A program made the position numbers and the translations under genes. 64,000 nucleotides of DNA from IMG/VR virus record IMGVR_UViG_3300046171_000298, positions 1-64,000 of that record; one strand, written 5' to 3'. The DNA is from a virus. This document shows positions 18,519 through 45,387 of this stretch, in pieces (position 1 is the stretch's first letter; the number at the start of each line of letters is the position of its first letter). The notes under the pieces are model-generated. The model saw only the letters and a list, made by a program, of their open reading frames with translations. It made no database searches and had not been told where the DNA came from.

Positions 18519-18546
18519 GACCCACTAACGTGGGTCTATTTTTTTG
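18519..18546 (+). terminator. Rho-independent terminator after the riboswitch operon
   Basis: A 7-bp stem GACCCAC/GTGGGTC with loop TAAC is followed by TATTTTTTT. Confidence 0.85.
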
Positions 18547-18572
18547 TCTTCAATCAATTAAATTAGTAATAT
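18544..18572 (+). promoter_or_regulatory. Candidate sigma-70 promoter for PTOX
   Basis: TTGTCT and TAATAT are 17 bases apart, just after the terminator and 14 bases before the PTOX ATG. This would give a very short leader. No other promoter is visible in the gap. Confidence 0.4.
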
Positions 18573-18586
18573 ATGCGTATTTAACA

Positions 18587-19096
18587 ATGGAACACATTAA
18601 CAAGTTGTTAATTCATTACTCTGTTTTACTCATTGATTTACTTTATAAAGACAGGCATTTTCAAAGATTTTGGGTACTAGAAACCATTGCCCGAGTTCCT
18701 TACTTTTCTTTTCTAAGTGTTCTGCATTTTAAAGAATCATTAGGATTGCGAGGAAACAATCATCATTTTCTAATGAAAGAACATTTTGCTCAATCAATTA
18801 ATGAAACAGAGCATTTGGAAATTATGGAAAAACGTGGCGGTAACGCATATTGGATTGATCGGTTTTTTGCATATCATTTAGTATTACTTTATTACTGGTT
18901 AATGGTCATCTATTATCTAGTTGCCCCATCATATGCTTATGATCTTAATGTATGTATTGAGCAACATGCTGTTCATACATATCAGACTTATTTAGACAAT
19001 GTAGATTCTAAAGATTCACAGATATTTCAAATACTTAGTGATGAACAAAAGCATGTATACGAGCTAATATCTGCTCAATCATTAATTCTTTTATAA
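18587..19096 (+). CDS. Plastoquinol terminal oxidase (PTOX, alternative-oxidase family)
   Basis: All diiron ligand motifs of the family are visible: LET with E32, NETEHL with E73 and H76, IEQHAVHTY with E125, and SDEQKH with E153 and H156. A hydrophobic stretch near residues 95-112 fits interfacial membrane binding. PTOX transfers electrons from plastoquinol to O2. In infected cyanobacteria it can bleed electrons between the photosystems and save ATP-generating proton flow. The 169-aa length is typical of cyanophage versions. It stands alone between two terminators. Confidence 0.88.
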   Translation: MEHINKLLIHYSVLLIDLLYKDRHFQRFWVLETIARVPYFSFLSVLHFKESLGLRGNNHHFLMKEHFAQSINETEHLEIMEKRGGNAYWIDRFFAYHLVLLYYWLMVIYYLVAPSYAYDLNVCIEQHAVHTYQTYLDNVDSKDSQIFQILSDEQKHVYELISAQSLILL

Positions 19097-19194: not shown

Positions 19195-19575
19195 ATGTCT
19201 ATCATTTCAAAAATTGCACTTTTTGGTGCACTGTCTACTGTTGCAGTATCTCCTGCAATCGCTGGTCCATTTGCAAACATCGAAAGCAATACATCTTATT
19301 TTGGTGATGATCGCTTAAATACAACTACAGATTTGCATCTTGGCTATGAGCATGCTATCAACGATAAAGTAACTGTCTCTATTCAAGCAGGCCCTTCTTT
19401 TGTTAATATGCCTGATGCTGATTACGAGCATGAAATCTCAGGTAAAGTTGCAATCTCAGCTGATGTAAGCGAAAGCCTCAACATTTATGGTGAAGCATAC
19501 GCAATCACGGTTCAACGTGACATTGAAGCAGACTTTCCAATTGATTTGAAAGTAGGCGCACGATATTCCTTCTGA
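19195..19575 (+). CDS. Exported small beta-rich protein, outer-membrane-like
   Basis: A signal peptide with a Lys, a hydrophobic core and an SPAIAG cleavage region (after about residue 23) precedes repeated amphipathic beta strands. The protein ends in KVGARYSF, an outer-membrane-type terminal Phe. The length of 126 aa matches small exported proteins of unknown function in cyanomyoviruses. It probably modifies the host envelope. It is followed by a strong terminator that closes the + strand block. Confidence 0.65.
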   Translation: MSIISKIALFGALSTVAVSPAIAGPFANIESNTSYFGDDRLNTTTDLHLGYEHAINDKVTVSIQAGPSFVNMPDADYEHEISGKVAISADVSESLNIYGEAYAITVQRDIEADFPIDLKVGARYSF

Positions 19576-20355: not shown

Positions 20356-20682
20356 CTATGCAAAAGTGAGACCATCACCATCTAAATCATCATCTTCCCA
20401 ACCTATATCTTCAATGTCTGTAGACATTTCATCAGCACTATTTAAAATCAATAGTTCTGTAAATGTTTCTTCTGACATTATTTCCGGTGGCCCTACTTGA
20501 GCCTCATCTACTTTAAATAATATACCGTTCTCTCTCAAGAATGTTTGCAAGCCATTCTTTTGCTCCATTCGTGTTTTAAGCAGTTTTAAGGCTGTGAGCT
20601 CCAAAGCAGACCGGCTCATCCTCGTTACTTCGTAACGCGCTCTCCTGAGTGCAAACCTCTGTTCTATCGATAGTGTGTTCAT
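20356..20682 (-). CDS. nblA: NblA-like phycobilisome degradation adaptor with acidic extension
   Basis: The first 57 residues follow the NblA pattern: MNTLSIEQRFALRRARYEVT, MSRSALELTALKLLKTRM, then QKNGLQTFLRENG, as in L-S-L-E-Q-x-F and the S-x-E-x-L-x-x-L-L helix. NblA dimers tether phycobiliproteins to Clp protease during bleaching; phage copies are known in freshwater and marine cyanophages. Here a 50-residue acidic tail (IGWEDDDLDGDGLTFA) follows, unlike the 55-65 aa host protein. The ATG at 20682 is chosen over 20691. Its start overlaps the HNH gene by about 107 bases. Confidence 0.72.
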   Translation of the reverse strand: MNTLSIEQRFALRRARYEVTRMSRSALELTALKLLKTRMEQKNGLQTFLRENGILFKVDEAQVGPPEIMSEETFTELLILNSADEMSTDIEDIGWEDDDLDGDGLTFA

Positions 20683-21046
20683 CATTTTCAAAGTAATCGT
20701 AATCTAGGCGTGTGTCATTAACCCATTCCAAAATCAATTCTTTTGCAACTTCGTTGTAAAATGTTTGTGATTCAAACCAAGAAACCCATTCTTGAGAACT
20801 CTTGCTTTGGTTACATTCTACGCAACACGGAACAAGATTGCTTCTTAAATTACTGCCACCTTTCGAGCGAGGTTTGAGGTGGTCAACCGTTACTGCTCTT
20901 TGTTTTCGACAATACGCACACAAACCTCCAAACGAATATCGGATGAAGTTTCGGAATCTTTTCTTGGCAGATCCCTTGGAAAGGCACTGGAGATTGAACA
21001 TAAGTTCGCCCCAACTTTCTGGTGTACGCATAAAGTTGCTTAACAA
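20576..21046 (-). CDS. HNH endonuclease
   Basis: The HNH core is clear: CAYC, then VTVDHLKPRSKGGSN, then NLVPCCVECNQSK, with four zinc-binding cysteines and the catalytic His in VDH. A C-terminal Asp/Glu-rich end runs deep into the NblA-like gene. Freestanding HNH nucleases of this form are common in cyanophages and act as homing or packaging nicking enzymes. The last 30 residues could be an indel artefact. An internal ATG at 21031 is an alternative start. Confidence 0.8.
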   Translation of the reverse strand: MLSNFMRTPESWGELMFNLQCLSKGSAKKRFRNFIRYSFGGLCAYCRKQRAVTVDHLKPRSKGGSNLRSNLVPCCVECNQSKSSQEWVSWFESQTFYNEVAKELILEWVNDTRLDYDYFENDEHTIDRTEVCTQESALRSNEDEPVCFGAHSLKTA

Positions 21047-21785: not shown

Positions 21786-21837
21786 GATAATATTTTGTCT
21801 CTACTTTAATTTTATCAAATCTATTTAGAATAAAAAT

Positions 21838-21924
21838 GGAGAGGTGGTCGAGTGGTTTATGGCTCCAGTCTTGAAAACTGGCGTGTCTTCACGGGCACCA
21901 GGGGTTCGAATCCCCTCCTCTCCG
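21838..21924 (+). tRNA. tRNA-Ser (anticodon TGA)
   Basis: A complete class II tRNA. The acceptor stem is GGAGAGG/CCTCTCC with discriminator G. The anticodon arm is CAGT-CTTGAAA-ACTG, anticodon TGA. It has a long variable arm and a T arm AGGGG-TTCGAAT-CCCCT. No CCA is encoded. It starts right after an AT-rich gap and ends 11 bases before the convergent integrase stop. Confidence 0.95.
21889..21924 (+). other. Candidate attP core in the tRNA-Ser 3' half
   Basis: Tyrosine integrases commonly use the T-arm/acceptor part of a tRNA gene as attachment core, and int lies immediately beside it. The location is inferred from the arrangement; the core borders cannot be read without the host sequence. 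Confidence 0.4.
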
Positions 21925-21935
21925 TGGATGCGCGA

Positions 21936-22748
21936 CTAACGTCTAATCTTTTTTATTGCTTCAAATTTATCTTCAATGGTCCAAGTGCCATAACGAGCTG
22001 TCATACCTGCAACTTTATGACCCATGAGTTTAGAAATCATAGAATCTTGCAAATTAGCGCTCCTTGCTCTAGTGCTCCAGTTGTGACGAAGGCTGTGAGC
22101 TGCTTCGCCTTGGGGTAGCCCCATAACGTCATTAAATTTTTCAGACCAATTTTTGCCTGGGTAACGAGTGAAGTCAGTTGTTAGCATCCCCACCCACGGA
22201 TAAAACTCAGGATGGATGGGCACTTGCCGTGTGGCCAGAGGCTTTACAAGCCTGTTGTCATTATTTTTAATTTGAAAGTAAGGGATTTCACTACGGAAAA
22301 CAATTTCTCTATTTAACAAACCAGCGATTTCACCAATTCTAAATCCGTGATACCAGATCGCAAGAAAAATAGGATCTTGATGATAGGGTTTATAAAAATC
22401 AAACGGACGCACAGGATATTCTTTACCCATGCGCTCCGCTTGCATGTCTCTGTTGACTTTAATTTTTTTACTGGAGTGTAGCCAATAGTTTTGACCATCA
22501 ACGATGTCTTCTTCATTTGCCATATTCCAGATACCTGAGAGCAAGCTGAGGCGGCGTCTGAGGGTCTCAGGAGAGCATTTGCCAATTGGCTTGAGCTGTG
22601 ACTTCCAATAGCGTGTAACAAACATTTTGTCTGTCATTGACACGTCAACATCAGCGATAGGCCGAATAGCCTGCCACCAACATTTGTATGTGCTGTCACG
22701 AATGTCCTGCGTTTCGCGGACACATTCCATCAGTTCTTTGTAATTCAT
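21936..22748 (-). CDS. int: Tyrosine recombinase/integrase
   Basis: Catalytic residues are in order: R137 in YHGFRIGEIAGL, K161, H218xxR221 in HSLRHNW, H244 in LMGHKV, and Y253 in ARYGTW. The N-terminal half fits a SAM-like core-binding domain. It would catalyse site-specific insertion into the host tRNA-Ser gene. The ATG at 22748 is preferred to an upstream TTG. A terminator lies just before it, so it has its own promoter or low read-through expression. Confidence 0.9.
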   Translation of the reverse strand: MNYKELMECVRETQDIRDSTYKCWWQAIRPIADVDVSMTDKMFVTRYWKSQLKPIGKCSPETLRRRLSLLSGIWNMANEEDIVDGQNYWLHSSKKIKVNRDMQAERMGKEYPVRPFDFYKPYHQDPIFLAIWYHGFRIGEIAGLLNREIVFRSEIPYFQIKNNDNRLVKPLATRQVPIHPEFYPWVGMLTTDFTRYPGKNWSEKFNDVMGLPQGEAAHSLRHNWSTRARSANLQDSMISKLMGHKVAGMTARYGTWTIEDKFEAIKKIRR

Positions 22749-22790
22749 GTGATCTTTCTGGGTTATAAGCAACGCCAATCAATGTCTAAC

Positions 22791-22813
22791 AAAAAACCCC
22801 ACAAATTGTGGGG
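22791..22813 (-). terminator. Terminator upstream of int
   Basis: Read on the - strand: CCCCACA/TGTGGGG, 7 bp with a 3-base loop, followed by TTTTTT. It closes the transcription unit of the two genes at 22.9-23.4 kb. Confidence 0.85.
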
Positions 22814-22919
22814 CTTTGGGTTAGGTGACGGAGAGCGAGGGATTCGCTCTTTCGAAATTGACGTTACTGCCCAAACAATAGCACCTAAGTACTCAATTTA
22901 CAATAAGACTAACTTATCA

Positions 22920-45005: not shown

Positions 45006-45387
45006 ATGGATTTTATCGATAATAATTTATGGACCCCCGTTCATACACTCGATGGATTTGAATGCTGTATTGAATATTATGTCAATGATCACGGAGAAGT
45101 TAAATCCACAAAAGGCTGTATTGAACGTTTACTTAAACAAAGCATAGGCCGTAATGGCTATCCACGAGTAAACTTGACTCAAAGAATAGGAAGAAAACAA
45201 ACGATTACCGTTAACGTACATACTCTTGTAGCTTTAGCTTTTCTGCCGTTACCTCAGACTCCTCCAGGGCGAAAAAAAGGGATGCTCATTTGTAAAACAC
45301 ATAGATGGTGACAAAACAAACTGTTCGGTATTAAACCTCGAATGGGCAAAAGAATTAACTAAATATCTTAGAATGTTGAAAGAATAA
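45006..45387 (+). CDS. HNH homing endonuclease (NUMOD4-type), one frameshift
   Basis: The N-terminal YYVNDHGEVKSTKG and NGYPRVNL are the NUMOD4-like substrate region, followed by VNVHTLVALAFLP (HNH first His). One indel in the stretch near 45285 restores VKHIDGDKTNCSVLNLEWA, the HNH end. Such free-standing homing enzymes spread between phages. It lies on the opposite strand between the capsid gene and the sigma-factor region. Confidence 0.8.

Follow-up and report, generated by a model that had tools for sequence, protein, structure and literature searches.

A probable tRNA-Ser(GGA)-type attachment core and a separate tRNA-Ser(UGA) gene on opposite sides of a cyanophage integrase gene

Whether cyanophages with an integrase gene lysogenise their hosts is a wider question on which the locus described here bears; according to a passage of PMC8776855, marine Synechococcus and Prochlorococcus isolates are said to have no intact prophages. 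We analysed a stretch of 64,000 bases (referred to as the window), which covers positions 1-64000 of a virus record 67,208 bases long and in which a tRNA-Ser(UGA) gene lies directly beside an integrase gene. Is this tRNA the attachment site (attP) of the phage, as an earlier note on this DNA had proposed, or does it serve another purpose? Sequence comparisons with related phages and host genomes point to an answer that we consider quite probable: the attP would be an 18-base core at the opposite flank of the integrase gene, directed to host tRNA-Ser(GGA), and the tRNA-Ser(UGA) would be a functional phage tRNA.

The tRNA gene, the integrase and related phages

The tRNA gene is the only one detected by ARAGORN in the window, and Rfam (RF00005) places it at 21838-21924 with 54.6 bits. 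It is a whole tRNA-Ser(TGA) beside the integrase, as the earlier note had described it, with coordinates that were right within 1-2 bases. All 25 hand-assigned stem pairs are standard (7 in the acceptor stem, 3 in the D stem and 5 each in the anticodon stem, the variable arm and the T stem), and the acceptor stem is therefore perfect, as had been claimed. The tRNA and the integrase gene are convergent; the distance of 11 bases to the integrase stop, given previously, applies to the Rfam end of the tRNA, and the ARAGORN end leaves 10 bases. The motif TAGAAT ahead of the tRNA is a weak candidate for its -10 element: a promoter scan placed no site at this motif and revealed no regional excess (3 sites found vs 2.9 expected).

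Features of the integrase region, with positions in the window
Feature	Position	Strand	Remarks
Possible -10 element TAGAAT	21826..21831	+	6 bases ahead of the first G of the tRNA; invariant in four aligned tRNA loci
tRNA-Ser(UGA), complete	21837..21925	+	ARAGORN
Tyrosine integrase, 270 aa	21936..22748	-	PF00589, E=3e-7; PHROG 'integrase', E=1.2e-16
Right-hand 12-base repeat GATTGGCGTTGC	22769..22780	-	mostly invariant columns; possible recombinase or accessory-protein site
Hairpin and T-run (CCCCACAATTTGTGGGG TTTTTT)	22791..22813	-	between core and integrase; present in 9 aligned loci
Candidate attP core CGAATCCCTCGCTCTCCG	22829..22846	-	equals 3' end of host tRNA-Ser(GGA); upstream of integrase gene
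Left-hand 12-base repeat GTAACGTCAATT	22856..22867	-	inverted relative to the right-hand repeat; 9/12 match in window
Possible integrase promoter TTGTAA-17-TATTGT	22875..22903	-	upstream of core; weak

The residues R137, H218, R221, H244 and Y253 of the integrase, which we take to be the catalytic residues of tyrosine recombinases, are invariant in 10 aligned relatives, and the protein is predicted to be a tyrosine recombinase in which these residues are intact. Judged by length and inspection only, it appears to have no N-terminal arm-binding domain. An AlphaFold model of the integrase was poor (mean pLDDT 48.7).

The isolate with the nearest terminase is Synechococcus phage S-EIV1 (54.4% identity over 99%, tblastn), and the phage is most likely closest to the S-EIV1 lineage; the tblastn comparison with S-EIV1 covered two proteins, the terminase and the integrase. 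The integrase gave no match at E 1e-5 in a tblastn search of phage records, S-EIV1 included. According to parts of PMC5332604 the S-EIV1 group includes environmental members with hli and ptoX, and the window likewise contains a gene for an alternative-oxidase family protein (18530-19096, +). S-EIV1 (KJ410740) differs from the window in that it has no tRNA gene, no match to the integrase and none of the host-tRNA 18-mers described below. Complete tRNA-Ser genes are also found in T4-like cyanophages (S-RSM4, S-SM2 and others), but their best full-length match to the window tRNA is only 80.7%; two phage records show a partial match of 95-99%.

Using a 35-base tRNA pattern, three viral contigs (L001, L002 and L003) were recovered, each with a whole tRNA-Ser(UGA). 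A query of the viral contigs with a single integrase sequence found nothing, and an alignment of two integrase sequences yielded 11 loci (L006-L016), the integrases of which are 63-86% identical. The contigs of L001 and L002 also carry two of these loci, L011 and L012. Within each of the pairs L011/L012 and L013/L014 the loci are nearly identical to one another, and L010 begins inside the integrase gene, without upstream sequence. ARAGORN detected a tRNA in only 2 of the 11 loci, and a search of whole records in 4 of 13 (the window, L003, L011 and L012). The tRNA is missing from 9 of the 12 integrase-bearing records, four of which are 73-84 kb long. Several records are fragments; the stretch adjoining the integrase is nonetheless present, and free of a tRNA, in all nine. 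The tRNA is clearly dispensable within this phage group.

Other features in this part of the window are a gene for a cyanophage outer-membrane-like beta barrel protein (19195-19575, +), a gene for an NblA-like phycobilisome degradation protein (20356-20691, -; PF04485, E=1.7e-6), with similar ORFs seen by eye in L001-L003, and a glutamine riboswitch (RF01739, 18010-18064, +), which is also present in L006, L007, L009, L013 and L016.

A host tRNA-Ser end upstream of the integrase gene

As a control set we used 1,423 distinct 18-mers from 293 host tRNAs, which is a partial set consisting mostly of Ser, Ile and Ala tRNAs. In the window these 18-mers match the tRNA gene itself and the candidate core, and nowhere else. 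Neither the window nor the final 3.3 kb of the record contains a second copy of the core. The identity between window and host covers exactly 18 bases, from the T-loop to the discriminator base, in 14 Synechococcus-type genomes. Upstream sequence is available for 11 of the integrase loci (window included, L010 excluded), and the core lies upstream of the integrase gene in every one of them; 9 of these are distinct loci because the set contains two near-identical pairs. In an alignment of nine loci 17 of the 18 core columns are invariant, and the core has two forms, CGAATCCCTC-G/C-CTCTCCG, with the G form in the window. A longer pattern of 21 bases matched 8 viral contigs, every one of which was already in the integrase set.

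A host 20-mer that ends in the core and covers both forms is present in 383 of 400 Cyanobiaceae genomes. Among the 14 C-form loci examined, out of 30 matches listed, 7 belong to tRNA-Ser(GCT) and 7 to tRNA-Ser(GGA). The G form was sought in 27 chosen genomes, 18 with a tRNA-Ser(UGA) that is 89-91% like that of the phage and 9 others; it was found in 14 of the 18 and in 0 of the 9, and the host gene was tRNA-Ser(GGA) in all 14 cases. All 14 G-form genomes share one genus with G138 and with G003, which is Synechococcus sp. AG-670-A05, and this likely host genus is presumably marine.

The core is flanked by two 12-base repeats, both of which are present in 9 of 9 loci. The right-hand repeat follows the core at +49 or +50. 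The left-hand repeat, picked out as the best match in a stretch of 45 bases and without a shuffle control, precedes the core by 9-10 bases and agrees in 9-11 of 12 positions. The hairpin between core and integrase gene was listed on the plus strand only, and the T-run of the minus strand was read directly from the sequence. Hairpin and T-run may serve the restored host tRNA as a terminator: a short inverted repeat directly follows tRNA-Ser(GGA) in hosts, and the phage may therefore bring a replacement terminator. Ahead of the core, at a distance of 26-28 bases, the motif TAnnnT is found in 9 of 9 loci. The possible integrase promoter of the window matches no better than shuffled sequences (116 of 300 reach the same score), and the sigma-70 consensus scores of this element are within those of shuffles at most loci.

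Choice of the attachment site and proposed integration

The earlier note had suggested a comparison of the 3' half of the phage tRNA with picocyanobacterial tRNA-Ser genes. A match to the phage tRNA was found in 361 of the 400 Cyanobiaceae genomes, but its last 18 bases are present in 0 of 400, and an exact pattern of the last 60 bases (anticodon arm onward) was found in none of the genome contigs. The best host tRNA-Ser(UGA), which accounts for 14 of 30 loci among the matches listed, agrees with the phage tRNA at 79 of 87 bases, and over the first 28 bases the two are identical. The eight differences from this nearest host tRNA are located at 29/43 and 30/42 in the anticodon stem and at 63/79 and 64/78 in the T stem, that is, in four pairs which have changed on both sides with pairing kept in all of them. 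Because of these compensated differences and the absence of the last 18 bases, the 3' half differs from every host tRNA found. The chance of such compensation by eight random sites is 2e-7 in a simple model that ignores mutation bias, and the pattern of changes would imply past selection on the tRNA fold. The blocks shared with the 293 host tRNAs comprise 29 bases at the 5' end, 19 bases in the variable arm and one 18-mer in the T arm. Together with the 28 identical bases, these blocks speak most strongly for the attP that the earlier note had proposed.

If the whole tRNA-Ser(UGA) were the attP, the crossover would take place in the 5' half or the variable arm and both hybrids would be intact tRNAs. 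The gene adjoins the integrase, and a site in the 5' half is conceivable because the identity of 28 bases to the best hosts is longer than the 18-base core; moreover, the attP of T7-like cyanophages is described in sections of PMC8776855 as located downstream of the integrase gene and matching the first half of a tRNA-Leu. However, the nine records without the tRNA beside the integrase include those with the closest integrases (85-86% identical), the upstream core is there with or without the tRNA, and the last 18 bases of the tRNA lack any counterpart in the 400 genomes, compared with 383 for the host sequence of the upstream block. We regard this site as highly improbable. It is also conceivable that the 18-base block acts as the hairpin of a leader RNA (GAGCGA-ATCCC-TCGCTC) which regulates the integrase gene, and that its likeness to a tRNA is incidental. 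The block forms a short inverted repeat in the window, lies between the possible promoter and the integrase gene and is followed by the hairpin and T-run. But its end coincides exactly with the tRNA discriminator base, each of the two forms is an exact 3' end of host tRNA-Ser genes, and the G/C alternative spoils the symmetry of the local hairpin and preserves the tRNA match; a leader hairpin seems unlikely to us.

We prefer the reading in which the core is the attP for tRNA-Ser(GGA) and the tRNA-Ser(UGA) is probably a functional phage tRNA distinct from the attachment site. Against this reading stands that the 18-base core is short and that longer blocks are common to the phage tRNA and host tRNAs. 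The proposal of a tRNA-Ser-derived attP adjoining the integrase appears to hold in kind but not in place: the candidate at 22829-22846 lies at the opposite flank of the integrase gene and corresponds to tRNA-Ser(GGA).

In the proposed integration, recombination by the integrase would take place between the core and the 3' end of the host tRNA-Ser(GGA) gene, the two being identical. The host gene would keep its 5' part, and its last 18 bases would be restored unchanged from the phage. The restored tRNA would end at the phage hairpin and T-run, with the integrase gene adjoining. The tRNA-Ser(UGA) would be a separate gene, descended from a host-like tRNA-Ser(UGA), the fold of which would have been kept by selection. 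Tentatively, and with more doubt than confidence, we suggest that integration might switch off the integrase gene and repair the host tRNA in one step, while the second, freely evolving tRNA-Ser(UGA) moves between lineages. Because the core sits between the conserved promoter-like site and the integrase gene, integration at tRNA-Ser(GGA) would separate this gene from its promoter. The integrase gene would be placed behind the host tRNA and the latter given a phage-borne terminator; the mobile tRNA-Ser(UGA) would occupy a slot downstream of the integrase gene, where most relatives have a long hairpin. If this is true, marine S-EIV1-like phages can integrate at an isoacceptor other than the tRNA they carry.

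Because no integrated copy was found among the genomes and viral contigs searched, integration is a step that we infer. An integrase profile gave only distant matches in 400 Cyanobiaceae (one genome per species; 5 of 400, best E 2e-15) and in the likely host genus (3 of 34 genomes), and the attL and attR for which the earlier note had suggested a look in host genomes were not seen in this profile search of 400 and 34 genomes. The host integrases recovered with the profile are distant, and their loci of ~3.5 kb contain no tRNA. In the viral contigs an attL-like pattern matched only two unrelated tRNA-Ser genes. A scan of 30 small ORFs (of 106 candidate ORFs) revealed no PHROG match for a repressor or excisionase. 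Parts of PMC8776855 report integration of T7-like cyanophages into tRNA-Leu but no formation of stable lysogens, and an attP together with an integrase gene therefore falls short of proving lysogeny.

The int/attP modules of the T7-like cyanophages P-SSP7 and S-TIP37, as far as they are described in the same parts of PMC8776855, resemble the locus in their lytic-looking gene set, tyrosine integrase and tRNA-identical attachment sequence. There, the attP is downstream of the integrase gene and matches the first half of tRNA-Leu over 39 bp, whereas here the core is upstream and shares 18 bp with the 3' end of tRNA-Ser(GGA), and the phage lineage is another one. The siphovirus P-SS2 is likewise a marine picocyanobacterial phage with a tRNA-related putative attP by its integrase gene and with unproven integration; according to an excerpt of PMC2784084 it differs in its 53-bp match including 36 bp of tRNA-Met, its host Prochlorococcus and its phage type. 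Integrase elements at tRNA-Phe or tRNA-Cys of marine picocyanobacteria also combine a tRNA with a tyrosine recombinase, but in the portions of the preprint PMC10187409 that describe them the integrases are full-length and exceed 350 aa, the tRNAs are others and the elements are host genomic islands; the integrase described here has 270 aa and is encoded in a phage. The literature searched contains no description of an attP for S-EIV1-like phages, which is weak evidence of its absence from print. For a group of cyanophages that is not T7-like, these results name a host gene and a likely host genus and give exact junction sequences, so that PCR or metagenomic reads can be used to look for integration. 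The locus also serves as a warning that the nearest whole tRNA need not be the attachment site; a short copy of a tRNA end across the integrase gene fits better.

Use and spread of the phage tRNA

The codon UCA is used 20.3 times per 1000 codons in the window vs 5.3 in the sampled host G138, the coding sample of which has 63% GC; the low-GC genome G248 (33% GC, presumably Prochlorococcus) uses it 23.3 times per 1000. Most likely the tRNA-Ser(UGA), if expressed, would supplement UCA decoding in a GC-rich host that seldom uses this codon. The role as a translational aid, which the earlier note had considered, is in agreement with the compensated stem changes and the high UCA usage, but relatives without the tRNA are similarly rich in UCA (12-26 per 1000; 12.5 in S-EIV1).

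The tRNA could instead be a passenger which provides no present benefit and owes its spread among related phages to an HNH homing endonuclease linked to it. Its sequence is identical across 89 alignment columns in the window, L001, L002 and L003 while the flanks diverge, and the integrase of L002 is only 67% identical to that of the window. L001, L002 and L003 each have an ORF that abuts on the tRNA and overlaps it, with an HNH_3 match in L003 (E=1.2e-5); in two of the three integrase-bearing records with the tRNA an HNH-like ORF lies between tRNA and integrase. The abutting ORF may explain the spread of the tRNA. However, the window has no such ORF beside its tRNA, the ORF of L001 has no Pfam match, and the four compensated stem changes speak for selection on the fold in the past. 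A mere passenger appears rather unlikely, though less so than either of the alternatives for the attachment site.

In relatives a long inverted repeat with arms near GCTACGYTAACTAC and GTAGTTAGCGTAGC replaces the tRNA just downstream of the integrase gene (L006, L007, L008, L009, L010, L013, L014, L015 and L016). In the 5 of 9 loci that were folded, z scores range from -2.1 to -8.75; the covariation term of RNAalifold is slightly unfavourable (+0.68), and 4 of 14 pairs have changed on both sides. The support for a conserved fold is mixed, and Rfam gave no match at the gathering threshold for the five loci searched. This long hairpin was rejected as the attP of the relatives, because the window and L011/L012 are without it while the core is present in all 11 loci.

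The HNH-like ORFs at L001:7089-7520 and L003:9232-9759 are on the strand opposite to the tRNA, their reading frames extend into it, and they could form a mobile tRNA-endonuclease cassette. Two more HNH endonuclease genes are located in the window at 20576-21046 (-) and 45006-45311 (+).
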